A DNA stretch of 64,000 nucleotides from contig NC_014150.1 of assembly GCF_000092845.1 (NCBI RefSeq), positions 1,760,919 to 1,824,918 of the forward strand, written 5' to 3'. The position numbers and the translations under genes are program-made. This document shows positions 25,635 to 49,561 of the stretch, piece after piece. The first letter of the stretch is position 1. Every line of letters starts with the position of its first letter. The DNA comes from Brachyspira murdochii DSM 12563 (GTDB taxonomy: Bacteria; Spirochaetota; Brachyspiria; Brachyspirales; Brachyspiraceae). Below the pieces are notes generated by a model. It was not told where the DNA came from and made no database searches. It worked only from the letters and a program-made list of their open reading frames with translations.

Positions 25635-25657
25635 AAAATAAAAAAGTGATTTTTGTT

Positions 25658-28600
25658 ATGCTAGAATTAATTTTATTTCCAAATTATAAAGCAAAAAATA
25701 ATTATCTTAAAGATAAATTCAAAAAATATACAATGGATATAAGCAATTATCAGATACTCCATAGATATTATAAAGATAATAAAGAAAAGTTTTTTATAAG
25801 CTACAGAATAGATAATCAAAAACAATATATAGATGAATCAATAGCAATAATCAATATTCATAATATATTAAACGAATACAAATATAATAATAAAAACTCT
25901 GTAATAGCAAAACAAAATATTACATATGAGCTTGCATACACTTTATACAAACTTATAGAAGAAATTACTTTAGCTAAATTTTATGGTTTTGATTTGAATA
26001 AATATAAAGAGCTTAAAGAGATAAATACAGTTATAAGGCATTATAAAGAATATAATAAACAAAATGATCTTTTAGATGAGTTCGATATATTTGAGCTTTT
26101 TATAGAGGCTATAAAAAATAGAGAGCTTGATTATTTGAATGAGTATAATAGTATAATCATTTATGGTTTTGAAAAGATACCGCCTTTGCATTTAATATTT
26201 TTAGAGAGCCTTAAAAAATATTATAATATAAATGTGAAAGTGGAACTTCCTTATGACATGAAAAAATATTTTTATGATTATAGATCATTTTATCAGGGTA
26301 TTGATAATTTTGATATTAGTACCAATTCGGATTTTTCAAAGTCGCTTATAGATAAAACTAATTTAACTAAATATAAAGAAAGAATAAAGTTTATAGCTGG
26401 TTTCGGAGCAAAACAGGAAGTTGACACTGCAGTAGATGAGATAATAAAATTAATAAAAAATGGTACTCCTTTATATGATATAGGTATAATATTTTCGGAT
26501 ATTCAAAAATACAGCGATATAGTTTCAAGAAGATTAAAAGAATGTTCTATCAAGTTTAATGAAAGAAGGGCTAATTTTGTTTGGAAAGTGCCTATAATAC
26601 CAGTGCTTACTTCTATATTTTCTATACTTGATAAATATAATGGTGAGCTTAATATAGACGCTTTAATAAAGGTTCTCTCCTCTTCATATATGAAAAATCT
26701 TGATGGATTAAATCCTTATAATATAAGAGACTTGATTTATTCTTATGATAAGTATGATAAATATAATTCAGTAGAGATATATTCAAAGATGGCTTTTAAT
26801 GATTTCAAAGATAAAATAGCGAGAAAGTTTAATAACAATAATACTTCAAAAACTATAATAGAGTTTATTGATTTACTTAATATATTGGTATCAAAGAAAA
26901 CTTATAAAGAAATAGGGCTTGCTTATATAAATATTTTAAAATTTTTAAAAATTGGTTCTATGTCTTATGATGATGAATATGAAAAGGAATATTATAATAG
27001 AGATAATGAGGCATTGGCAATTTTTATTGATTTAGTGCTTACAATATCATATACTGAAGAGATAGAAACTATAGAAAATGAGAGTATAAGTCATTTTGAT
27101 TTTCAAACTGCTTTGAATGTATTATTAAGAGATAAGTCTCTTATGGACAATGATGATAAAGAAATTTCTCTTACTGTAAGCAATTTATATGATGCTAGGG
27201 GACTTAGATTTAAGCATTTATTTATATTGGGCATGAATAATGATTTTATAAACAGAAGACCTAATGTATTTTTTATAAGTGAGAAATTGAGAGAAAGTAT
27301 CAATAAAGATTTGAAAAAGCATGCATTTAATACTCAGCATTATTTATCAGATATTTCTTATGCTTTATTTTTGAATATATTATCTTACTGCTATGAAGAA
27401 ACTCATGTTTATTTTTCTTTCAGATTAAAAGATGATAATGGTAATTTGGAAGTTCCTTTTTATTATCTGGAAGATTTATATAATGAAATGTATCATAATG
27501 ATTTTAAATTTGATAATTTAAAAGAAAACGGACTTATATACAGAAAAGAATATATACAAAAAGAAAATAATATTCACACTAATAAAGAAAATTTAATGAG
27601 TTTATTTTTTAATCATGATGCGGCATATTATATAGATGATGTAAAAAGCATTATGAATAAAGTATATCATAAGAGAAATAAAAACGGATATAATAATTTT
27701 GATAATAAAAGCGAAGAGATAAAAACATTTTTCTATAATATTTTTAAAAGTCCAGTTTCAGTTACAACTCTTCAGTCTATAATGGAATGCTCTGCAAAGT
27801 TTTTTTATTCGAGTTTATATCAAAAAGATTCTGTTGAGGCTAAAGTTCAGGGAATAAATCGTGCTGATAAAGGTATTACTTATCATAGATTTTTTCAGAA
27901 GTTTTATGAAGATGTTAAAGGCAAATCAGCTATTTTTGACTGCTCGCTTAAAGAAGAAGAGTTTAATACTTACTGCAATATAGCTGATGAAGTAGTAGAA
28001 GAGCATATTAATAAAATGATAGAATCATACTCAAAAAAAGATTTGGAGGAGAGGTATTTTATTGAGTATCAGTTAGATCAAAATATTATAAAAAAGGAAG
28101 CATTAAATGTTATGCATGCCTTTATAAGAAAAGAAATTATTACAAATAAAGTTAAAGATATGAACGAGGGTTATCATTATATACCTTTTGATTTTGAAAG
28201 GAGAATAGGATTTGATGAAAAAGAATCTGTAATATATAAAAAAGGTGATTTCACATTAAAGATAAGAGGTGTAATAGACAGAATAGATTTCAGCTATAAA
28301 GATGATAAATATAAAAATATAAATGGTGTTAGGATAGCGGATTATAAAGGAAGCCCTAGAACAGAAAAAAAAGAGAAAAAAGAAAAAACAAATATAGAAA
28401 TTATAAAAGAAACAATACTTACATATCTTCAGCCTATACTTTATTTGAAATTAATTTTAAGCGAATATATAAAAAATAATGTAGCAGAAAAAATAGAACA
28501 CTGTGAAGTGGTATTTACTATATACAGAGAAAAAGATGTTATAGATGAGAATACTGAAATAAATGAAGTATATAATGACAGGGATTTTTTACTTTCAGTA

Positions 28601-28759
28601 TGCGGATATATAGAAAGCGAATATAATTTGAATGATTATTTTGATGAAGTATTTGAAGATATTTTAAATGGAAAACTTAAATATAGTCCAAGTATAAGTA
28701 ACTGCGATGGCTGTTATAATGCACCTTACTGCGAACATGTATATCAAAAAGAAGAGTAA
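25658..28759 (+). CDS. AddB-like PD-(D/E)XK nuclease with Fe-S cysteines
   Basis: A large protein of about 1030 residues resembling the AddB subunit of AddAB-type recombination nucleases, which degrade and resect double-strand ends. The N-terminal part starts LELILFPNYKAKN and has an inactive-helicase look with no Walker A loop. The segment LTVSNLYDARGLRFKHLFILGMNN matches the helicase-like domain 2 region in small part. The C-terminal nuclease has GITYHRFFQKF (His), RGVIDRIDF (Asp) and IADYKG (Asp-x-Lys). One Cys before (MECSAKFF) and three after (CDGCYNAPYC) make the four-cysteine Fe-S staple of AddB. An AddA partner is not in the window. A GTG at 25646 is an alternative start. No clear ribosome site is seen at ATG 25658. 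Confidence 0.8.
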   Translation: MLELILFPNYKAKNNYLKDKFKKYTMDISNYQILHRYYKDNKEKFFISYRIDNQKQYIDESIAIINIHNILNEYKYNNKNSVIAKQNITYELAYTLYKLIEEITLAKFYGFDLNKYKELKEINTVIRHYKEYNKQNDLLDEFDIFELFIEAIKNRELDYLNEYNSIIIYGFEKIPPLHLIFLESLKKYYNINVKVELPYDMKKYFYDYRSFYQGIDNFDISTNSDFSKSLIDKTNLTKYKERIKFIAGFGAKQEVDTAVDEIIKLIKNGTPLYDIGIIFSDIQKYSDIVSRRLKECSIKFNERRANFVWKVPIIPVLTSIFSILDKYNGELNIDALIKVLSSSYMKNLDGLNPYNIRDLIYSYDKYDKYNSVEIYSKMAFNDFKDKIARKFNNNNTSKTIIEFIDLLNILVSKKTYKEIGLAYINILKFLKIGSMSYDDEYEKEYYNRDNEALAIFIDLVLTISYTEEIETIENESISHFDFQTALNVLLRDKSLMDNDDKEISLTVSNLYDARGLRFKHLFILGMNNDFINRRPNVFFISEKLRESINKDLKKHAFNTQHYLSDISYALFLNILSYCYEETHVYFSFRLKDDNGNLEVPFYYLEDLYNEMYHNDFKFDNLKENGLIYRKEYIQKENNIHTNKENLMSLFFNHDAAYYIDDVKSIMNKVYHKRNKNGYNNFDNKSEEIKTFFYNIFKSPVSVTTLQSIMECSAKFFYSSLYQKDSVEAKVQGINRADKGITYHRFFQKFYEDVKGKSAIFDCSLKEEEFNTYCNIADEVVEEHINKMIESYSKKDLEERYFIEYQLDQNIIKKEALNVMHAFIRKEIITNKVKDMNEGYHYIPFDFERRIGFDEKESVIYKKGDFTLKIRGVIDRIDFSYKDDKYKNINGVRIADYKGSPRTEKKEKKEKTNIEIIKETILTYLQPILYLKLILSEYIKNNVAEKIEHCEVVFTIYREKDVIDENTEINEVYNDRDFLLSVCGYIESEYNLNDYFDEVFEDILNGKLKYSPSISNCDGCYNAPYCEHVYQKEE

Positions 28760-28768
28760 ATAATATTT

Positions 28769-30124
28769 TTAACTCTCTAAAGTTTTTAATAATTCTTCTT
28801 CGATTATACGCATATAACTTGCAAAATCTTTTATACTTTCAAAATTATTATTTTTTGCTGAGGGAATTTTTAAGGCGTATTTATATATTTTACAATTAAT
28901 GTTACTGTATTTATTGTTTAAATTTCCTATATAATCATAATCTTTATAATTATTATTTTCAGTAGGATAAATAAAACCAGCCTTTTTAGCATTAAGTGTA
29001 TAAGCGTATGATACTATTTGATGTTTGTCATTTCTATCTATATTTTCACTGATGTAATTATCAAGCCTTTTATATTTGGCATCAAGCACTATATTATTAT
29101 TTTCTGATAATTTATAGAAGTCTGGATAAACTATCCAAGCATTATTAAGTAGGTTTATACCATTTTTTGAGGTTCTATTTTCGGCATGAATAAAATTTAT
29201 TTTGCTTAAAAAAGTATTTAAATACTCTTCAAAAATCCAAGCACCATCAAATAATAATCCATATACAGTGTTATCATCACTTCCATATTTTAATTTTTCA
29301 TGCCTTAATATTTGAATGCATATTTTTCTTAAAGGCTCATATTCATAATAGTAGGGGTGCGATAATTTTTTTAAGTTTTTATTTATAATGCTTTCTCTTT
29401 TATTTTTCTCATAACTAGGAGTTGAATAAAATATCTGCTGAATATAATTTTTTATTTCATTGTCATAGCCTAAAATATATCTGTTTTTCGTGTTTATATA
29501 TTCTATAGTGTGCCTTATTAATTGTGTCATATTATTATCATAGCTGTATTCTCTGGTATTGTACGAAATTTTACCATTAAAAGGAATATTATTTTTGATG
29601 TATCTGTTAATATCAATAGTTCCTTTTACATGACAATCATTATGTTTTATTAATTTGTACTGCTTAAAAAGTCCCTGTCTTAATGCTTTCTTAAAAAAAC
29701 TAATAAACATGTAAATCAAAAAATCAAATGAATTATCATAATCCTTACTATGCTCCAAATTAATAATATTAAGATTAAGAACTTTCATAAGTATGTAGTG
29801 CAGAAAATAATCATTATCATCATCTGCAAATCTTGAAGATATTTTTATTTGAATATTTTTATAGCTAATAAATCCCATTATATTATTGGTGCATATACTG
29901 TCATTAATAATATCAAATATTTTACTTTCTTCTTCCAAGTCTTTACTTTCTTTTCTAGAGTGAGGAAATATTATAATACTATCTCTCACACTAGAAAGAG
30001 TTTTGCCTGCAATTTCTTTAATTGAGCTTATATCTTCTTCAGAAATATTTTCCTTTATACTTATTAATTTTTCATGTTTAGTATTATCTTTTAATTTAAC
30101 AATTTTATTATTTGTGTTATTCAT
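28769..30124 (-). CDS. mcrC: McrC nuclease subunit of a McrBC-type restriction system
   Basis: Nuclease subunit that works with McrB to cut modified (typically methylcytosine) DNA. 451 residues. The N-terminal domain with IKISSRFADDDNDYFLHYIL and the middle KGTIDINRYIKNN are McrC-like. The catalytic PD-(D/E)XK set is PD at residues 334-335 and DAK at 348-350 (IVYPDFYKL ... IVLDAKYKRL). It lies 42 bases after mcrB on the same strand and converges on the AddB-like gene with a nine-base gap, without a visible terminator. Confidence 0.88.
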   Translation of the reverse strand: MNNTNNKIVKLKDNTKHEKLISIKENISEEDISSIKEIAGKTLSSVRDSIIIFPHSRKESKDLEEESKIFDIINDSICTNNIMGFISYKNIQIKISSRFADDDNDYFLHYILMKVLNLNIINLEHSKDYDNSFDFLIYMFISFFKKALRQGLFKQYKLIKHNDCHVKGTIDINRYIKNNIPFNGKISYNTREYSYDNNMTQLIRHTIEYINTKNRYILGYDNEIKNYIQQIFYSTPSYEKNKRESIINKNLKKLSHPYYYEYEPLRKICIQILRHEKLKYGSDDNTVYGLLFDGAWIFEEYLNTFLSKINFIHAENRTSKNGINLLNNAWIVYPDFYKLSENNNIVLDAKYKRLDNYISENIDRNDKHQIVSYAYTLNAKKAGFIYPTENNNYKDYDYIGNLNNKYSNINCKIYKYALKIPSAKNNNFESIKDFASYMRIIEEELLKTLES

Positions 30125-30166
30125 ATTATTATTTTTATTATAAACTTATAAAATTATATATAATAA

Positions 30167-31978
30167 TTAATTATCATCATTTAAGTAATAAGCACTTTTT
30201 AATTCATCAAGTTTATTTTCAGCATCAGGCATACCCCTTAAATACTCATATAAAAGTCCTTTCAAATGATTCTCCCACGAATTATTAAATGCCTCTTCTT
30301 TATTATCTATTGAATTGTCATAATAATTTTTTAGTTTCAGAAAATAGGAAGCCCCTATATGATATGAAGAATTAAATCCTTCAATTTTCTCTATTGCCTC
30401 ATTTAACTTGTTCATTCTGTCTTTAGCTTCATCTAGTATTCCATTATCTAAAACATTATCAAGCATATATTGTGTGTCTTTAGCTTTAATTTCTTTCCAA
30501 GCAAATCTCCTACGCATAGCAAAGTCCATACTCTCAACGCTTCTATCAATATCATTCATAGTTCCTATTATATAAACATTCTCTGGTACAAAGAAACCAT
30601 CTTCAAATTCATCATCTGTTTCATCATTACTAATCAAATTATTATATTGTGTTTTTACTCTTCCTATTTCTCCTCTGTATCCAGTATCAATAGCAAAAAA
30701 TAATTCTCCAAAAATTTTGGAAATCTCTCCTCGGTTAATCTCATCTATTATAAATACAAAATTTTTCTTTTGAACTTTTTCTATTGTTATATCATTACTA
30801 TTTAATTCTTTTTCTATTTCAGAATTATATTTTTCATAGAATGCTTTTAAAAAACCATGAATATATGTATGCTTTCCTTTATATCCAAATTCATTAATGA
30901 AATCCTGATATTCCAATTTATTTTTTACTTCAAATACTTTAATAAATTTTTTATAAAAATCTATAATGGTATCTAAAGTTAATGTAATATACAATCTAGA
31001 TTTTATTTGAGGTGCAAAATACACTGAATCATTATTTAATTCTATTTCTTTTAATGGAGATGCTTTCCTATCAATACCATCAATTTCGAAATATCCTTTT
31101 TCATTTATTATATTAGAAACATCGTCTATAAATTTAATTAAATTATTTTTGATAATAGTATCTTTATTTAATTCTGAAACATCTTTTTGACTATCAATTA
31201 AATTCTTCAATGCTCTTTTACAAAATTCTTTAAAAACTCCATCCTTTCTTTCAAATACCATATTGCCATTACTATCTTTAATGGGTCTTAATCCTTCAAC
31301 AAAATCTGTGTAATCATAAGAAGGGTGAAACTGCACAAACTTGCATTGATTTTTGAAATTATCATCATCTTCCAAATCTTCTGTGTATTCCTTATTATTG
31401 CCAAAAATCATTTTAGCTGCAATTTGTTTAGCCAAATAGGTTTTTCCTGTACCCGGAGCTCCTGTGAGTATGAGATTATAATTTTCTTTAAGAAGTTTGA
31501 TGCAGTTTTCTTTTAGGTTTTCCATATGCATATTTCCTGAATATTTTTTTAATAATTTATCTATATTATCTTTAGTGATGATGTCTTTAATATTGCAGAA
31601 TCTTCTTGCCTGAGAGCCGAAATTAAATTCATCTTCCAAACTTAACTTGTATAATTCGGCTTTAACGCATAATATAGTATCATCAATATAAGAAAGATAA
31701 TTTTTAATTTGCTCTTTATCTTTATTGTTATATTCTTTTATTAATTTATCTAATGTGATAGAATCTGAAATAGCTATACCTACAGCTTTTACTTTTATAC
31801 CTTCAGCAATGACTATTTTTGTGCCTTTTTTGATGTATGTATTTTTTACTTTTTCTAAAGCCTTTTTATAATCTGCATCATTATCTTTAAATCCCACAAA
31901 TACTATATTATATTTGAGAAATATTTCATCTAAAAGCGATTTATCTCCCCATCTGCTTCCAAAATAAACATATGACAT
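30167..31978 (-). CDS. mcrB: McrB AAA+ GTPase with EVE-like N-terminal domain
   Basis: Motor and recognition subunit of the modification-dependent restriction enzyme. 603 residues. The Walker A GAPGTGKT is at residues 173-180; the Walker B and McrB signature is FVFIIDEINRGEISKIFGE; MNDIDRSVESMDFAMRRRFAW holds sensor and arginine-finger residues. The first 130 residues (YVYFGSRWGDKS, KKGTKIVIAEGIKVKAVGIAI) look like an EVE/PUA-type modified-base reader rather than the E. coli McrB N-domain, so the recognised modification may differ. First gene of the mcrB-mcrC pair; ribosome site AGGAT before the ATG. Confidence 0.9.
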   Translation of the reverse strand: MSYVYFGSRWGDKSLLDEIFLKYNIVFVGFKDNDADYKKALEKVKNTYIKKGTKIVIAEGIKVKAVGIAISDSITLDKLIKEYNNKDKEQIKNYLSYIDDTILCVKAELYKLSLEDEFNFGSQARRFCNIKDIITKDNIDKLLKKYSGNMHMENLKENCIKLLKENYNLILTGAPGTGKTYLAKQIAAKMIFGNNKEYTEDLEDDDNFKNQCKFVQFHPSYDYTDFVEGLRPIKDSNGNMVFERKDGVFKEFCKRALKNLIDSQKDVSELNKDTIIKNNLIKFIDDVSNIINEKGYFEIDGIDRKASPLKEIELNNDSVYFAPQIKSRLYITLTLDTIIDFYKKFIKVFEVKNKLEYQDFINEFGYKGKHTYIHGFLKAFYEKYNSEIEKELNSNDITIEKVQKKNFVFIIDEINRGEISKIFGELFFAIDTGYRGEIGRVKTQYNNLISNDETDDEFEDGFFVPENVYIIGTMNDIDRSVESMDFAMRRRFAWKEIKAKDTQYMLDNVLDNGILDEAKDRMNKLNEAIEKIEGFNSSYHIGASYFLKLKNYYDNSIDNKEEAFNNSWENHLKGLLYEYLRGMPDAENKLDELKSAYYLNDDN

Positions 31979-34023: not shown

Positions 34024-37000
34024 TTATTCAACTTGAAATATATCGTCCATTATTTCTCTTTGCTTAATTTTAGCATTATCTATTTTTAATTGAGCTTGAT
34101 CTATTTGTTTTTTGCAATCTAAAATAGTATTTGATATTTCATTTTGTATATTTAAATCAGGTATAGGAATTTGTAATTTTTCTATTCTATCTATAGAAGC
34201 TCTCAAATTTCTATTAAAACCGTATTCCTTTCCAACTATATTAAAAGCATAATTAAAATATATCATGTTTACAGAATTATCAATACATTTTATAACACCG
34301 CAATGATCTGTAGGATAAAAAGGATTATTTGGGAGTATATAATTTGTCATCCAATCACCATCTATGCCCCATAATACAAATGTGAAATCAAAATTATCAA
34401 ATAACAATTCATCAATATATCCGAAAGGTTTATATACATTTGCACTATAAATAGGGTACTTACCATTTTCTTTGATATTCTTTTGTAATACTCTTTTACC
34501 TATAGTTATTTGAAATTTAGTTTTATCAGATAACTTACATTTATCATAATTGACAAAATCTAAACTATTAATTTTATCATTTAATTCTTTAATTATTTTT
34601 TCTTGTTCTAAAATGATATTTTCCTGTTCGTCCATAAGAGAAACTATTTCTTTCTGCTTTTCAATATTTAAATTTGGTATTTTTATTTTAGATAAATCTT
34701 TTTCATATACATGCGGTTGATTGGAACCTGTTTTTAAATCATAGATTAAATCCTGCAATTTTTTTAATGAATAATATATATATTTAGTAATATATTTTTC
34801 TTCATCAAGTGAACGTATTACATTACAATCTGATGCCCAAATTTTATAATTATGGTACCATACATATCCTGCACTTCCAGAAGCACTTACAGTTATACAA
34901 TTCTCATTTTGATTATATTCTGAATGAGAATATGGAGAAGTTTTTCCGCCAGCTATAACAGGTATATTTCCATTTTTTACTTTATTTTTTGTTATAGATT
35001 TTCCTTTTACTATAGATGATATTGCCCCTAATAAAATTAATCCATATTCAGTTAATATTTTTTTTTTAATATTTAAATTAATTCTATTAACAAAATTATC
35101 AGCCTCAAAATTAAAACAATCCTTTAAATCTAAAACATATATATTTTTTTCTAATTCTTTAACTACTTTAGGATAATTATCATAAAAAGCTTGAATCATA
35201 TAATAATTAGCTTTATTTATATTATTATTATTTATATCGTTTTCATCTAATAAACTACCTAAATATGTACCTTCTTTATTTCTTTCTTCTGTTATTCCTT
35301 CACTTCCCCTTCTATTACTGAAACTATATCCCAAAAATTTTTTTTCATCATCTTTTTCACCTGTATCAATTATCAAAATTTTTTTATCTTTACACATATT
35401 TATATAACTTTCTTTATTCTCTAAACGAATAGGTTTTTCCCTTTTTTGTAAAAATAATACAACAGTATTTGTGCCTGTAGCTTGAAATGCATTAGATCCT
35501 AATTTTACAATTCCTTTTAAATAAAAATTTTCAAATATGATAGTTCTTGCCTTTTCATAAAGTCCGTCATTTTGAAGTATAGAAACAGGAAGTATAATTG
35601 CAGCATACCCATTAGGTTTTAATAATTGTTTCATGCGCTCTATAAATATTACTTCTATTTCTTTACTGCTATCTGTTATATCTTTATACAAATCAAAAGC
35701 ATTATTAGAACTCCTATCCATTATAGCTTTAAATCCGCTTACAGAATAAGGAGGATTTGAAACAACTATATCAAATCTTTCATTTTCTTTATTTATAGTA
35801 TCTAATAATGTACCTCTGTAATCATCATGATTAAAAGGATAAATACCTGAAGTTTGAAGTATTTGGGCTTCACCATCTCCATTAAAAAAACATGATAGTT
35901 TAGTTGTCTTTACAAGTCTGTAATCATTTTCTATGCCATATATATTTTTTTCAGCCCAAATAAATTGATCAGGATCATCATTATATCTTTCTAAAATAGT
36001 TCTAACTGTTTTTAATATATCTAAATTTTCTTTTCCTATTTCTAAAAGAGATTTTTGAATTATGTCCATAACTTCTGTTAAAAAGTGTCCGCTTCCGCAT
36101 GCAAAATCTATAACTTTTGGAATAAAATCTTTATTTCCAGAAAGAATTTTTTCTTTAATAATTTTTTTTATTGGAATAGATTGTACAATGAATCTAGTTA
36201 ATATTCTTGGTGTAAAGAATTGTCCCACTTCCTGTTTAAAACCTGTATTTAAAAGATTTTCAAAAAAGTCTCCTAAAAATTGATGTTTTTCTGTATATCT
36301 GAATTGATATCCTTGTAATAATTCAACAACTTCTTTAACTATAGATGTATTTCTTTTAAAGTCTCTTTCATCAAATATATCAACAAATGAAAACTCTTGA
36401 TTTTTATAAATCATAGCCTGCATTAATGACTCTCTTAATTCTTTTTCATTTTTTTGTTTGATATCATCGAGTTTTATATAAAAAATAATTTTATTTAAAT
36501 AATCTTTCATTCCGCTTTGAAATAATTGATTGAGTCTATCAATAAATATTTCATAATTATCTGTAGCTTCACGCCATTGAAAACATAATTCTTCATTTTC
36601 TTTTGTATTATCTTCATCAAATACTTTACATACAAATAGATTAAATATTTTATTAAATGCATTAGGTTTATCTGAAACTACATTGTGTCTTAATATCTCT
36701 AAAAATTGGTTGTATATATTTTTACCATCTTCTGGTGTTATTGTTTTCAAATCCTTTTTTAAAAGAGCTTTTGCTTGTATTCCATATGGTAAAATATCTT
36801 CTTCAAATATTCCATTAAATGAAAATTGTTTATTCCATCTATTATATATTTCTTCTACATTAGCAAGTGTCTTTAATTCTTCATCAATTTTTACTATTTC
36901 ATTTTTGTACTCTATTTTTTCAATATCATTTAATCTTGAAGTATATAAGCATAAATATTCAGCATTTCTATCTTGATTATAATAACTAAATAGTTGTCCT

Positions 37001-37428
37001 CCTTTTTTATCCTTATCCAACATATTTTTATATTCTTTGTTAAACTCATTACCCCAAGTTTTACATTCTATCATCAAGTATGATACATTATATTTTGAAA
37101 CAAGTATGTCTAGTTTGCCTTTCTCTTTTCTACCCATTTCCCACTTTTTTTCAAGTGTTATACTATCAGGACTGTATCCTTTTTCTAAAAGTCTGTCAAC
37201 ACATTCCAAAACAACAAAATTTTCACTATTTTCAAAATTAGATGTAGTTTCATCTCCTAATGTTATTTTTTTATTAAAATTATTGTCTGAATAAAAAATT
37301 TTTTCTTTTTCAAAATCCACATTTATAGTGTAATTATTTTTATATTTTTTATTAAATATTTTAGAATTGATTTCTTTATATCCTAAAGCATATAATAGTT
37401 TTTTTATATATTCAATAGATAATTTCAA
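34024..37428 (-). CDS. Single-chain restriction-modification enzyme (type IIG/I-like: nuclease, methylase, specificity)
   Basis: One 1134-residue protein carries all three parts of a restriction-modification system. The N-terminal PD-(D/E)XK nuclease of the HsdR_N kind is D107 with ECK at 121-123. The N6-adenine methylase follows: helical domain, GQFFTP at 402-407, SAM motif DFACGSGHFL at 441-450, and catalytic NPPY at 558-561. From about residue 790 the specificity part has two target-recognition regions, each followed by a coiled coil (EQENIILEQEKIIKELNDKI; KKQIDQAQLKIDNAKIKQREI), as in HsdS. It would methylate adenine and cut the same asymmetric or bipartite site. It starts at TTG 37428 with AGGA eight bases before; no in-frame ATG is near. 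The recognition sequence cannot be predicted from here. Confidence 0.9.
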   Translation of the reverse strand: MKLSIEYIKKLLYALGYKEINSKIFNKKYKNNYTINVDFEKEKIFYSDNNFNKKITLGDETTSNFENSENFVVLECVDRLLEKGYSPDSITLEKKWEMGRKEKGKLDILVSKYNVSYLMIECKTWGNEFNKEYKNMLDKDKKGGQLFSYYNQDRNAEYLCLYTSRLNDIEKIEYKNEIVKIDEELKTLANVEEIYNRWNKQFSFNGIFEEDILPYGIQAKALLKKDLKTITPEDGKNIYNQFLEILRHNVVSDKPNAFNKIFNLFVCKVFDEDNTKENEELCFQWREATDNYEIFIDRLNQLFQSGMKDYLNKIIFYIKLDDIKQKNEKELRESLMQAMIYKNQEFSFVDIFDERDFKRNTSIVKEVVELLQGYQFRYTEKHQFLGDFFENLLNTGFKQEVGQFFTPRILTRFIVQSIPIKKIIKEKILSGNKDFIPKVIDFACGSGHFLTEVMDIIQKSLLEIGKENLDILKTVRTILERYNDDPDQFIWAEKNIYGIENDYRLVKTTKLSCFFNGDGEAQILQTSGIYPFNHDDYRGTLLDTINKENERFDIVVSNPPYSVSGFKAIMDRSSNNAFDLYKDITDSSKEIEVIFIERMKQLLKPNGYAAIILPVSILQNDGLYEKARTIIFENFYLKGIVKLGSNAFQATGTNTVVLFLQKREKPIRLENKESYINMCKDKKILIIDTGEKDDEKKFLGYSFSNRRGSEGITEERNKEGTYLGSLLDENDINNNNINKANYYMIQAFYDNYPKVVKELEKNIYVLDLKDCFNFEADNFVNRINLNIKKKILTEYGLILLGAISSIVKGKSITKNKVKNGNIPVIAGGKTSPYSHSEYNQNENCITVSASGSAGYVWYHNYKIWASDCNVIRSLDEEKYITKYIYYSLKKLQDLIYDLKTGSNQPHVYEKDLSKIKIPNLNIEKQKEIVSLMDEQENIILEQEKIIKELNDKINSLDFVNYDKCKLSDKTKFQITIGKRVLQKNIKENGKYPIYSANVYKPFGYIDELLFDNFDFTFVLWGIDGDWMTNYILPNNPFYPTDHCGVIKCIDNSVNMIYFNYAFNIVGKEYGFNRNLRASIDRIEKLQIPIPDLNIQNEISNTILDCKKQIDQAQLKIDNAKIKQREIMDDIFQVE

Positions 37429-38377: not shown

Positions 38378-38479
38378 ACATTAATATATTAATAAATTGC
38401 TTGACTTTTTTTATATATGAATTACTTTTATATCATCTTATTAAATCCCATATGCATTTATTTTAGGAAGAAAATAATA

Positions 38480-39241
38480 ATGATAAAGAAAATCATTTTA
38501 ATTATATCAATTATTTTATTTGTATCATGCACTAATAGTTCTAATAATACCGCTTCTAATATAGATAATCTGAATAATAGATATATAAATGTAGGCATAT
38601 ATGTTTATGATTATCCTTTTGGTTATATTTCTAATGGTAATATAGGCGGATTTGATTATGATTTGATGAATGAAATTTCAAGAATATCAGGTTTAAAGAT
38701 GAATTTTAATCCTATGAAGTTTGAAGAGCTTATGTCTGCTTTGGAATCTCATAAGATTGATGTTATTATAGCTGGAATGACTGTAACAGAAGAGAGAAAA
38801 GAGCTTGTGAATTTTTCAGATAAATATTATACGACTAGTCAGGCTGTAATTGTAGAGAAGAGCAATACAAATATAAATAAAGAAGAAGATTTGATAGGTA
38901 AAAATGTAGGTGTAATAATAGGAACTGTAGCAGATAGTATGATTTCAAAGATAGATGCAATTAATATAGAAAGATTCGATACAGGAAGCAGTATTATACT
39001 TGCTTTGAAAGTTAGAAAGGTAGATGCGGCTGTATTTGATAAAACTACATGTGAGCATTTTGCTGCTTATGATAATGACATAAAAATAGTGCAGAAAATT
39101 AAATTTCCTGATGAAGATTATGCTATAGCTTTTAGAAAAGAAGATACTAATTTATTAGATACTGTAAATAAAACTTTAAAAGAGATTATGACAAGCAGTT
39201 TTTATGATGAGCTTATGGCAAAACATTTAAATAGCAATTAA
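38480..39241 (+). CDS. Amino-acid-type ABC substrate-binding lipoprotein (paralogue 2)
   Basis: Tandem paralogue of the preceding gene: same family-3 fold with GGFDYDLMNEIS, VIIAGMTVTEERKELVNFSDKYY and LIGKNVGV. The start is set by AGGAAG (38465-38470) before ATG 38480, giving MIKKIILIISIILFVSC with lipobox FVSC (253 residues). It has a separate TTGACT box at 38401, so the pair need not be co-transcribed. The stop codon overlaps that of the convergent SWIM gene. Confidence 0.88.
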   Translation: MIKKIILIISIILFVSCTNSSNNTASNIDNLNNRYINVGIYVYDYPFGYISNGNIGGFDYDLMNEISRISGLKMNFNPMKFEELMSALESHKIDVIIAGMTVTEERKELVNFSDKYYTTSQAVIVEKSNTNINKEEDLIGKNVGVIIGTVADSMISKIDAINIERFDTGSSIILALKVRKVDAAVFDKTTCEHFAAYDNDIKIVQKIKFPDEDYAIAFRKEDTNLLDTVNKTLKEIMTSSFYDELMAKHLNSN

Positions 39242-41031
39242 TTATTAGTATCTTCAAAAAATATATTAATAACAGCATTGATATTTATTATGCTTATTGG
39301 GCGTATATAATATTTAGTCTTTTCTAATAGTATAAATTTATCTTTATCTATTTTTGAGTTTTTATAATTCATTATATATTTAATCCCGTTTGAATGAATT
39401 GATGTATATTTTATATTTAGGGTTAATCTCTCTTCATCATATTTTTCTGTATAATTTACTATATCAAAATAAAGTATTTGTTCTGTTTTATTAAATTCTA
39501 TATTTTCTATTTTTTGGAATTTTGCTATTATAATTTTTGCTCTGTCATTTTTATTGAAGTAGTCATATTTAAAATCTATATTAAGTATATCATTATAGCT
39601 TTCAGCAAATAATTCTTCATTGTTTTTTGATATTCTTAATTCTTCTAAAAGTTTACAATTAATTCTATCATTTAGTATAACGGAAGTTTTTTTGCTTGAT
39701 GATATTCTCTCTTCGTTATTGACTTTATAATTTATAAATTTAAATTTATGTTTGGAAATTTCTTCTATTGATATATTATTTTCAAAATGAATTTTTTTTC
39801 TGTAATTGCTTCTGATATCATCATATGATATTTTTGCATTATCGTAGAATGTAGGTATTACATAAGAGAAGAAAGATACTTTTTTGGCATTAATATTATA
39901 TAAATAAGCACTAGCTCCCAAATATCCAGTAGAACTTATCCAAGGATAAGCCCCAAGTCCTAAAAACTCTCCGCTTGTTCTGTTTATATATTTACTTCTA
40001 ATCTCTCCAGTAAGCATTTTCACTGTTTTATTATCATTTTCTTTCTTTGCTTTTTCTATTACATGTATTGTATTATAAAGTCTTGATAATGATGCAAATG
40101 CAAACAATTTATTAAAAGAAGCTCTTTTATTTATCATAGCATCAATACTCTCAGCAATACTTCTAAATATCTTTGCTATTTCAGGCATATTTTTTACCTG
40201 AAGTTTTACACTTAATTGTTCTGATATATCAAAGTCTTTTTCGCTGCATGAGTAAAATCCTTTTTCAAATATATTTTCTGCAAACTCTTTTGCAAATTTT
40301 AAAATATTTTCATCTATCTCTTTATCTTCTTCTTTTATATCTTCTAAAGTTCCGTACGTTTCTTTGTATTTTAATATCGCTATTATTTTATGTGCACAAA
40401 GCGAGGAATCTTTGCATGAACATACTGCCTTTTTTATACTGTCTTTTTTAGGAAAATAAATAATTGTATTTTCTTCTGGAATATTAATTTCAAGCATAGC
40501 ATTTTCGTTAATCTCTGCCTCAATATTTTCATAAAACCTGTCTAATGCATATTCAAAATTTATTTTAGTGCTTAATTTTCTAATTTCATCGAAGCTTATA
40601 TTTTTAACTTCATCAAATGTATTATTTGTTATATCATTGTTTTTTTCTTTTGTTTCTTTATTATTATTTTCATTGTTATTTTCATTGTTATTTTCATTGT
40701 TATTTTCTATATCATCATCTGCTTTATTTTCTGTATCAAGATGTTCTATATATAAAAGCGACATTATAATATGTTTGCAAATATCTTTTGACGGGCATGT
40801 ACATTTGCTTGATTTTATATCTTCATCATTAAGTATTACTTCTATTTTCTCTCCTGTATCTATTGTAACTTTTATTTTATTATTATCTTCTTCAATTTTT
40901 ATTTTTTCAGGTGTATTATTTATAATATTATCAATATCTTTAACAGAACGATTGTATATACCTTTATTTGTTAGAGTAAGAAGAAATGTTTCATTTATAT
41001 ATTGTTTCAAGTTGTTAATTTTTTCAGTCAT
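39238..41031 (-). CDS. Double SWIM zinc-finger protein, third gene of an ATPase/TOPRIM operon
   Basis: 597 residues, with two SWIM motifs (CxCx(n)CxH): C77, C79, C85, H87 (KCTCPSKDICKH) and C204, C206, C212, H214 (VCSCKDSSLCAH). Between them is a low-complexity Glu/Asn linker encoded by a 12-base tandem repeat. The remaining 380 residues are Lys/Asn/Ile-rich with no domain I can name. SWIM domains bind DNA or proteins and often accompany helicase or MoxR-type ATPase genes. Here the gene begins 16 bases after the TOPRIM gene and seems to be the last of a three-gene operon. It overlaps the convergent lipoprotein gene by four bases. Confidence 0.85.
   Translation of the reverse strand: MTEKINNLKQYINETFLLTLTNKGIYNRSVKDIDNIINNTPEKIKIEEDNNKIKVTIDTGEKIEVILNDEDIKSSKCTCPSKDICKHIIMSLLYIEHLDTENKADDDIENNNENNNENNNENNNKETKEKNNDITNNTFDEVKNISFDEIRKLSTKINFEYALDRFYENIEAEINENAMLEINIPEENTIIYFPKKDSIKKAVCSCKDSSLCAHKIIAILKYKETYGTLEDIKEEDKEIDENILKFAKEFAENIFEKGFYSCSEKDFDISEQLSVKLQVKNMPEIAKIFRSIAESIDAMINKRASFNKLFAFASLSRLYNTIHVIEKAKKENDNKTVKMLTGEIRSKYINRTSGEFLGLGAYPWISSTGYLGASAYLYNINAKKVSFFSYVIPTFYDNAKISYDDIRSNYRKKIHFENNISIEEISKHKFKFINYKVNNEERISSSKKTSVILNDRINCKLLEELRISKNNEELFAESYNDILNIDFKYDYFNKNDRAKIIIAKFQKIENIEFNKTEQILYFDIVNYTEKYDEERLTLNIKYTSIHSNGIKYIMNYKNSKIDKDKFILLEKTKYYIRPISIININAVINIFFEDTNN
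40659..40706. repeat. 12-base tandem repeat inside the SWIM gene
   Basis: Three exact copies of CATTGTTATTTT (40671-40706) preceded by one degenerate copy. On the coding strand they specify repeated Glu-Asn-Asn-Asn. Copy changes keep the frame and would only lengthen the linker. Confidence 0.9.
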
Positions 41032-41047
41032 TTTATAAGCCTATTTT

Positions 41048-41707
41048 TTATTTGAACATATTATTTAAAAAATCAATTAAATAATATAATACATTTGAAT
41101 CTAAATAATGAGAGCATTCCTGAAATAATCCGCCTATTGTATTTCTCTTTTTGCATCTTACCGATATGAATGCAAGTATTTTTGCTTTTAATAAATGGGC
41201 TTCATTACTGCCTTGATTAATATAATTATCTGCACATTTAAAAAAATTATTAACGCAGTCATTATATAAGTCTTTATCATTTTCTAAAATTATTTTTTCT
41301 ACTAAATGTTCTAAATATCCAGAAGTTTTATCATCAGTTTTAGTTGTTATAAATAAGCCTTTATAATCATCATAATAAATATTTTTGTTTTGATTATATT
41401 CACATTTTATAATATCATTAAAAATATTAAATCTTTTTTGAGCATTACTTTCTGCATCAACTACTATTGCAAGTTTTTCTATATTGTTGTAGTTGGAAGT
41501 TTTTATAAATGAAGTAATATGATTTTTATTATCAACTTTATTGATTGTTATTATATGTATAGTGTCATCATCTTCTATAAAGTTTTTTATATTTTGACTT
41601 GATTCATATTTTAAGTTTAATTTTTCTTTAATTATAAGTGAGCATAAATCTCTCTCATCATTTCCTTCAACAAGAAGAACTTTTTTAGCCATAGGGTTAT
41701 TAAGCAT
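41048..41707 (-). CDS. TOPRIM-domain protein (DUF3226-like), partner of the adjacent ATPase
   Basis: 219 residues. It opens with the TOPRIM strand VLLVEGNDERD (E14), and the second acidic site is IVVDAES (D84, E86, in place of the more usual DxD). The rest fits DUF3226. OLD-family and PARIS (AriA/AriB) defence systems pair an AAA/ABC-type ATPase with a TOPRIM nuclease in just this way; here the two are split over adjacent genes. GGGAGG lies inside the end of the ATPase gene, 12 bases before ATG 41707, and only four bases separate the genes, so translation is probably coupled. Nuclease activity is inferred only. Confidence 0.82.
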   Translation of the reverse strand: MLNNPMAKKVLLVEGNDERDLCSLIIKEKLNLKYESSQNIKNFIEDDDTIHIITINKVDNKNHITSFIKTSNYNNIEKLAIVVDAESNAQKRFNIFNDIIKCEYNQNKNIYYDDYKGLFITTKTDDKTSGYLEHLVEKIILENDKDLYNDCVNNFFKCADNYINQGSNEAHLLKAKILAFISVRCKKRNTIGGLFQECSHYLDSNVLYYLIDFLNNMFK

Positions 41708-41711
41708 TATT

Positions 41712-42776
41712 TTATCTTACCTCCCAATTATCCATAGCATTATTTAATTCTTCATTGCTGTATGTAATAGTATGATACTTATATTTTTCTTTTTTGTCAG
41801 CTTCTATTCTTATACCTTGAATATCATCATTTGAATTGTATTCATCTTTTTTCTCATTATAAACATCATTAAAAGCCTTTATACATTCATAAGAGTGAGT
41901 AGTTGCAAAAATCTGTATATTACCTAAATAAGACACTTTAAATAGAGATAACCATAAATTTCGTAAAGAACTGTAATGAAATCCATTATCGATTTCATCT
42001 ATAAATAAAACTCCATTTGGAAGAAATGAAGCATTAACTATATAATTGAATATTTTTAATATACCGCTCCCCAATGCATTTATTGGTAAATATCTGTCAA
42101 GACCGATATCAACTTCGCAAACTTTGTCTGAGGATATTCTTATTGATTCTATATTTGGTATTATAGCTTTTAAACTTTCTACAACTGTTTTATCTATTTT
42201 TAAATTTTGGAGTCTATTAAACGCTCCTATTGTTTCGTTTTTTACTTTTGTTTCAGAAGTACTATAATCATTTAAAAAAGAAAAATTAAATAAGGCAGCA
42301 TTAATAATAGATGATAATATTTTTTTGTTGTCAAATATAAAAGTATTATTAATAGGAACAAAGCTATTATCAAGATGTCTGTTATTATTTATAAGCATTG
42401 GAAGTTTTATAGTTTTTCCATTATTATTTTCTACCTGATAATAAATTCCATCTAATAGACTATTTGTTAATGATTTTATAGGATATATATTTAATTCTCT
42501 TTTATTAGTTTTTATATTTATAGGTTTTGTATAATCAAAATTATGAAAAATTAATTCCAAATTATTATTTAGAGGTATATCCCTTTGCAAAAAAGAAGAT
42601 AATATTGTATCACTTCTAAACATATTTGAGTATAAATATAATGCTTCCAAAAGATTACTTTTTCCAACACTATTTTTACCGAATATTAAATTGAACCTTT
42701 TAAAACAGTCAATAGAAAATTCTTTGAAGCATTTAAAATTACTTATACTAATATTTGGTATTTGAATATCACTCAT
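41712..42776 (-). CDS. AAA/ABC-type ATPase (OLD/AriA-like), first gene of the operon
   Basis: 354 residues. It begins ISNFKCFKEF, typical of the AAA_15/AAA_21 group. Walker A is GKNSVGKS (33-40), an ABC-like signature ALGSG is at 234-238, Walker B is VLFIDE (256-261) with the following DNGFH, and the H-loop is ATTHS (291-295). These ATPases form dimers that sense a trigger and control a nuclease partner, encoded here by the next gene. It is transcribed from a near-consensus promoter and heads the ATPase/TOPRIM/SWIM operon. Confidence 0.87.
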   Translation of the reverse strand: MSDIQIPNISISNFKCFKEFSIDCFKRFNLIFGKNSVGKSNLLEALYLYSNMFRSDTILSSFLQRDIPLNNNLELIFHNFDYTKPINIKTNKRELNIYPIKSLTNSLLDGIYYQVENNNGKTIKLPMLINNNRHLDNSFVPINNTFIFDNKKILSSIINAALFNFSFLNDYSTSETKVKNETIGAFNRLQNLKIDKTVVESLKAIIPNIESIRISSDKVCEVDIGLDRYLPINALGSGILKIFNYIVNASFLPNGVLFIDEIDNGFHYSSLRNLWLSLFKVSYLGNIQIFATTHSYECIKAFNDVYNEKKDEYNSNDDIQGIRIEADKKEKYKYHTITYSNEELNNAMDNWEVR

Positions 42777-42817
42777 AATTTTTATTCCATTTTTTGTTTA
42801 TATTTGATAGCATAAAA

Positions 42818-42846
42818 ATAATATATTAAAATAAATATCTTGTCAA
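42818..42846 (-). promoter_or_regulatory. Promoter of the ATPase/TOPRIM/SWIM operon
   Basis: Minus strand: TTGACA (42841-42846), exactly 17 bases, TATTAT (42818-42823), giving a leader of about 35 bases. Confidence 0.7.
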
Positions 42847-48687: not shown

Positions 48688-48746
48688 CTAAATAAGCGTA
48701 ATGGTTCCTCTGGAGCCTTACTCCCCATCATAGGATGGGGTTTTTT
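48688..48746 (+). ncRNA. Predicted structured short RNA or leader with its own terminator
   Basis: About 60 bases from the predicted start. Hairpin 1: GTAA-T-GGTTCC-TCT-GGAGCC-TTAC (about 48696-48719; one bulged T, one G-U). Hairpin 2: CCCCATC (48723-48729), loop ATAG region, GATGGGG (48734-48740), followed at once by six T: a strong terminator. The NYN gene starts six bases after the T-run, and the only purine-rich stretch that could bind ribosomes (GGATGGGG) is buried in hairpin 2. It may be an independent small RNA or a leader that switches the gene. I could not match it to a known riboswitch. Confidence 0.55.
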
Positions 48747-48752
48747 ATTTTT

Positions 48753-49382
48753 ATGGATAAAGTTAATTTCTACATAGACGGATTTAATATATATCATGCC
48801 ATTGATAGATTAAATAATAATAAGTTAAAATGGATAAACTATTATGATTTATGTAAGAGTTTATTAAAAGATAATGAGATAATAAATAAAGTATATTACT
48901 TTTCAGCATATGCTTTTTGGAAACCATATAGTCAAAATAATCATTATATATTTATACAAGCACTTAAATATTTTAATGTAGAAGTAGTTCTTGGTAATTT
49001 TAAAAAGAAAAGTAAAAATCTAATTATAAATGATAATAATGGTAATATAATAAAATATAATTATGAATATCATGAAGAAAAAGAAAGTGATGTAAATATA
49101 GCGATATATTTAGTAAGAGATGCATGTAAGAGAAATTGTGATAAAGCTATATTGTTATCTGGAGATAGTGATTTAGTACCTGCTATAAAAATGGCAAAAG
49201 AAGAGAATGCAGACTTAAAAGTAGGAGTTGTTGTTCCGCCTAATGTTCAGGCAAGCAGTTTAAAAAATATTTCTGATTTTGATATAAAATTATTAAAAAT
49301 TGATATATCTTCTTTTTTACTTCCTAATTCTATTAAATTAGAAACGGGGCATACGATAACTTGTCCTAAAGATTGGCAGTAA
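48753..49382 (+). CDS. NYN-domain (LabA/DUF88-type) predicted ribonuclease
   Basis: 209 residues. NYN/PIN-like nuclease fold: NFYIDGFNIYHAI at the start, then KESDVNIAIYLVRDA and LLSGDSDLVPAIKMAKEE supply the acidic metal-binding set, and VGVVVPPN fits the last strand. Such proteins are single-strand RNases or, in some cases, toxins. ATG 48753 is used because the frame upstream (from 48735) lies within the terminator hairpin. No classical ribosome site is free. The whole unit sits between two 28-base direct repeats. Confidence 0.85.
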   Translation: MDKVNFYIDGFNIYHAIDRLNNNKLKWINYYDLCKSLLKDNEIINKVYYFSAYAFWKPYSQNNHYIFIQALKYFNVEVVLGNFKKKSKNLIINDNNGNIIKYNYEYHEEKESDVNIAIYLVRDACKRNCDKAILLSGDSDLVPAIKMAKEENADLKVGVVVPPNVQASSLKNISDFDIKLLKIDISSFLLPNSIKLETGHTITCPKDWQ

Positions 49383-49476: not shown

Positions 49477-49561
49477 GCTCGGGTGATGGAATTGGTAGAC
49501 ATAGCAGATTTAAAATCTGCTGGTCCTTGTGACCGTGCCGGTTCGATTCCGGCCCCGAGCA
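49477..49561 (+). tRNA. tRNA-Leu (anticodon UAA)
   Basis: Acceptor stem GCTCGGG with CCCGAGC, anticodon stem GCAGA/TCTGC enclosing TTTAAAA (anticodon TAA), a long variable arm (GGTCC ... class II) and the T-arm GCCGGTTCGATTCCGGC. The discriminator is A, and CCA is not encoded, so it must be added enzymatically. Confidence 0.96.

Follow-up and report, generated by a model that had tools for sequence, protein, structure and literature searches.

An ATPase/DUF3226 gene pair with a putative role in phage defense separates the promoter of a core SWIM gene from its ribosome site in Brachyspira

Results

The window, by which we mean the whole 64,000-nucleotide stretch of the Brachyspira murdochii DSM 12563 genome analyzed here (G000; 3.24 Mb, a single contig), carries three co-directional genes on its minus strand. 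They code, in this order, for an ABC-type AAA ATPase of 354 aa (41712..42776), a DUF3226 TOPRIM protein of 219 aa that is a putative nuclease effector (41048..41707), and a YehQ-like double-SWIM zinc-finger protein of 597 aa (39238..41031), referred to below as SWIM. An earlier sequence-only reading of this DNA had described these ORFs and their junctions, and the ORF and Pfam analyses bear it out on each point of the layout. The ATPase stop and the TOPRIM start are 4 bases apart, with the ribosome site GGGAGG inside the 3′ end of the ATPase gene, and 16 bases (41032..41047, minus strand) separate the TOPRIM gene from SWIM. The promoter that it had proposed, TTGACA-17-TATTAT (42846-42818, minus strand), scores higher (11/12) than any other promoter-like site in the region; with a spacer of 15-19 bases, the window contains the pattern three times, where 0.25 occurrences would be expected. 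No minus-strand terminator-like site was found within the three genes, which probably form one transcription unit here. Since the arrangement is kept in 7/26 genomes of the genus, it is not a matter of chance.

The ATPase carries a Walker A motif (GKNSVGKS), a Walker B motif (LFIDE), and an H-loop (ATTHS), and matches Pfam AAA_15 (2e-18) and AAA_21 (7e-18). Among the PADLOC profiles, it matches PDC-M38A (PDLC04611) at 3e-46 over residues 8-354 of 354, AbiLi (PDLC02336) slightly better at 9.6e-50, and the AriA profiles at 1e-21. The TOPRIM protein matches DUF3226 (3e-16) and, weakly, OLD-like_TOPRIM in Pfam, as well as PDC-M38B (PDLC04623) over residues 6-218 of 219 (1.3e-10); no match was found to AbiLii among the PADLOC profiles at E values up to 1, nor to AriB (PADLOC) or DUF4435 (Pfam). 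The acidic residues E14 and D84 and a D/E two residues on (D84-A-E86 in the window protein) are kept in nearly all aligned members. The AlphaFold model of the TOPRIM protein (pLDDT 49) was too low in confidence to check the TOPRIM fold, and searches of solved structures with this protein returned no informative relatives. With this pair, PDC-M38, a candidate kind that was already known, gains a new member.

SWIM matches Pfam PF04434 in two stretches. Residues C77, C79, C85, and H87 of finger 1 (CTCPSKDICKH; 40771..40803, minus strand) and C204, C206, C212, and H214 of finger 2 (CSCKDSSLCAH; 40390..40422, minus strand) are invariant in the genus alignment. The SWIM gene of G015 is interrupted by an assembly gap. 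The AlphaFold model of SWIM (pLDDT 51) was too low in confidence for a fold search, and searches of solved structures with SWIM were likewise uninformative. At their convergent stop ends, SWIM and the solute-binding protein gene (38417-39241) overlap by 4 bases (39238-39241).

The defense-related neighborhood reported by the sequence-only reading is present. It comprises McrBC-type genes (28769-31978), a PDDEXK nuclease for the gene read as AddB-like (25646-28759), and, for the single-chain restriction-modification gene, a type IIG gene (34024-37428). The latter lies between lepA and the solute-binding protein gene and is an accessory insertion, as these two genes are only ~190 bases apart in G008 and G015. 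On the far side of the locus, the window also contains an NYN-domain protein gene (48735-49382) that matches PADLOC HEC-09 (1e-43) and adjoins a tRNA-Leu gene (49477-49561).

Co-directional genes, a 16-base gap, a single promoter with no terminator in between, and an arrangement kept in seven species all favor a three-component defense operon, in which SWIM would be an accessory or DNA-binding part of the ATPase/TOPRIM system. However, the distribution of the genes among 26 Brachyspira genomes, several of them drafts, speaks against it. SWIM is universal (26/26) and the pair is patchy: an ATPase orthologue (≥73% protein identity) occurs in 12/26 genomes, and the TOPRIM gene is intact in 9/26, split in G018, and a remnant in G014, which has kept the ATPase but, of the deleted TOPRIM gene, only a short initial piece. 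G003 and G024 are 85-88% complete, and gene absence there is weaker evidence. The intact pair lies directly upstream of SWIM in seven genomes (G000, G005, G006, G009, G015, G021, and G023). It lies away from both secF and SWIM in G011 and G013, and is thus found without SWIM. In two further genomes, SWIM is elsewhere and what adjoins secF is the ATPase, together with a split TOPRIM gene in G018 and without a TOPRIM gene in G002.

The secF-to-SWIM interval is free of the pair in G004, G007, G022, and G025. At these empty sites, a TTGACA + TATAT.AT element is followed by a short leader and then SWIM; the same leader is present in G024, at a contig end. In the filled genomes, the ATPase gene comes next after a matching promoter, and the SWIM leader, TAGGCTTATA.AATG, appears again right after the TOPRIM stop. 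The pair, hereafter the cassette, is therefore positioned between the SWIM promoter and the SWIM ribosome site. The promoter repeat was considered as the cause of the insertion site and rejected, as its full match occurs only once in the genome; the next-best match, with one mismatch, precedes a gene that we take to be mnmG/gidA. The leaders at the empty sites of several species are similar, which suggests that the empty state is old and did not arise by separate deletions. In G017, the SWIM leader is fused to what has been kept ahead of it, namely the promoter and the leader and first codons of the ATPase gene, and this fusion is a deletion scar. In G008, a fucosyltransferase-like gene (L072:14793-15917) occupies the secF-SWIM slot instead of the pair.

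From this position, found in seven species behind the promoter but ahead of the ribosome site of a gene that all genomes keep, one could imagine the cassette as a regulatory parasite whose loss or silencing disturbs SWIM expression, which in turn would stabilize the cassette. However, cassette loss is tolerated, since both the promoter and SWIM are intact at the clean empty sites and at the deletion scar, and further copies of the cassette adjoin secF with no SWIM beside them. Such addiction is in our view quite unlikely.

The cassette also has a history apart from that of SWIM. Both pair genes of the mosaic genome G023 share 97% DNA identity with those of G000, with SWIM at 82%; against G009, the figures are 97% for SWIM and 84% for the pair. 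The ATPase gene is similarly 97% identical between G014 and G002 (SWIM 80%) and between G015 and G005 (SWIM 85%). Followed along the region, G023 turns G000-like within the secF-ATPase gap and switches to G009-like at the TOPRIM/SWIM junction, which is the 3′ boundary of the exchanged cassette. AU tests reject the pair grouping on SWIM data and vice versa (p 9e-6 and 2e-112), although these p-values are only descriptive, since the clades were picked after seeing the identities. These identity patterns indicate that the cassette was swapped between species without SWIM.

DUF3226 loci were also searched for across the phylum, and flanks of ~1.5 kb were scanned at 23 loci besides the window cassette, 14 of them outside the genus and 9 being paralogous pairs in Brachyspira. 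An ATPase gene lies directly upstream at 23/23. The sequence-only reading had suggested tabulating the neighborhoods of ATPase homologues to see if SWIM is retained, and no SWIM match was found within these flanks at any of the 23 loci. Several paralogous ATPase/DUF3226 pairs can be present per genome. G000 itself contains a further pair at 1661570-1663140 (L205:6565-8147) and another at 2340243-2341829 (L206), whose DUF3226 part has decayed and contains several stops.

The literature searched contained nothing on anti-phage systems in Brachyspira. DUF3226 was not found mentioned there either, and the exact family is, as far as we found, without a tested member; the pair could accordingly be read as a housekeeping pair for DNA or RNA processing with no part in defense. 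Against this stand its patchy occurrence, ATPase presence changing at least 10 times on a poorly resolved lepA tree, its decay and its several paralogous copies per genome, the allelic exchange, and the match to a PADLOC candidate. We regard a housekeeping function as unlikely.

Outside the genus, SWIM stands in another set of genes. Its profile matched well in Bacteroides and Parabacteroides and in three further genera of spirochaetes (G310, G209, and G321). In Bacteroides, Parabacteroides, G310, and G321, the SWIM-type relatives share a gene row with MoxR-, DUF5682-, and VWA_CoxE-type genes. Pfam matches place the SWIM relative beside MoxR (AAA_5), DUF5682, and VWA_CoxE genes at loci L197 and L202, and similarity identifies the same partner genes at L198, L200, and L203; only L200, which is close to the end of a contig, showed no MoxR part. 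The window protein aligns with the Bacteroides set member at 30% over 578 positions (E 8e-84). The corresponding gene row in E. coli K-12 is yehL-yehM-yehP-yehQ, and SWIM aligns with YehQ across both fingers (hhalign probability 88.8, E 2.5e-6, 167 columns); the alignment did not extend to the C-terminal part of SWIM. These alignments identify the Brachyspira SWIM gene as the YehQ counterpart and as belonging to a YehLMPQ-like set.

The partners are kept in Brachyspira at separate loci: DUF5682 in 26/26 genomes, VWA_CoxE in 26/26, and a MoxR orthologue in 25/26. In G000, the four genes are scattered rather than in one operon, with MoxR at 1415218, VWA_CoxE at 1567813, SWIM at 1800159, and DUF5682 at 1860605 (1.42, 1.57, 1.80, and 1.86 Mb). 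Members of the set had no match among the PADLOC models, and the literature searched contained only incidental mentions of the yehLMPQ genes. In operons of this set, SWIM is followed by a small gene, 91-99 codons long (L197:7677-7952 and L202:6891-7190). The L198, L200, and L202 copies of this gene are related and have no Pfam match, and it is possibly a fifth member of the set.

The presence of SWIM in the MoxR-DUF5682-VWA set elsewhere, together with its distribution and the exchange of the pair without it, led us to reject it as a component of the defense system, and a three-component operon now appears highly improbable. Of the three-gene system proposed by the sequence-only reading, an ATPase/TOPRIM pair of the defense type, probably co-transcribed with SWIM, stands, and the inclusion of SWIM does not. 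Nor is SWIM tied to the pair as had been supposed: its homologues mostly lack the pair as a neighbor (SWIM in 26/26 genomes, the pair in a minority).

Discussion

The locus very probably combines two unrelated units under one promoter, a movable ATPase/TOPRIM cassette and a core SWIM gene. A phage-defense role of the pair is suggested by its resemblance to known proteins, and its mode of action is probably similar to that of AbiL and PARIS, two split ATPase/TOPRIM systems. As to the biochemical activity that we infer by analogy with these two systems, the ATPase would probably keep the TOPRIM protein inactive until a phage product is sensed. The TOPRIM protein would then cut nucleic acid, possibly host tRNA, halting phage growth. 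With the cassette between its promoter and ribosome site, SWIM has become third in the transcript, and it would probably be expressed by readthrough.

Given that the adjacency is kept in seven species, the position of SWIM behind the pair may bring some regulatory benefit. One could go further and propose that the placement was selected, with the MoxR-DUF5682-VWA-SWIM machinery co-induced with the pair, or guarded by it, where the pair is present. There is only a slim chance of this; if true, it would be a lineage-specific coupling of a movable defense cassette to a core chaperone-like system.

The reading as two unrelated units has a more general meaning for the search for defense genes. When a cassette sits behind a core gene's promoter but ahead of its ribosome site, that core gene looks like a member of the system. 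Guilt-by-association searches for defense components can be misled by such an operon-like layout, even one that several species have conserved. The filled, empty, and scarred sites also form a natural series for testing the ATPase/DUF3226 pair. In addition, the MoxR-DUF5682-VWA-SWIM set, scattered yet co-retained, is now placed in Brachyspira.

Among known systems, the closest is PDC-M38, a PADLOC candidate for phage defense, of which the window pair matches both the A and B proteins over nearly their full length, with the two genes adjacent across the 4-base gap. However, PDC-M38 is, as far as we found, only a computational candidate, the match of the window TOPRIM protein is modest (1e-10), and SWIM comes after the pair in some Brachyspira only. 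The ATPase also resembles AbiLi (1e-49), but the second protein is a DUF3226 protein, and membership in AbiL was rejected for want of an AbiLii.

PARIS likewise has separate genes for an ABC ATPase (AriA) and a TOPRIM protein (AriB) (PMC12409363, PMC10568477). In PARIS, AriA sequesters the AriB nuclease and releases it on sensing a phage protein, and the freed AriB cleaves tRNA (PMC12409363). The window shares with it the use of two separate genes, with that for the ATPase upstream of that for the TOPRIM protein, a likeness of architecture and not of membership; an effector of the AriB/DUF4435 type is absent from the pair, and membership in PARIS was rejected on this ground. OLD systems of classes 1-3 carry the ATPase and TOPRIM domains in one chain, whereas the window has two separate ORFs; PARIS, in which each domain has a gene of its own, has been put forward as class 4 of the OLD systems (PMC10568477). 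For SWIM, the appropriate comparison is with E. coli yehL-yehM-yehP-yehQ: although the Brachyspira genes are scattered, SWIM aligns with YehQ and all the partner families are present in the genus.
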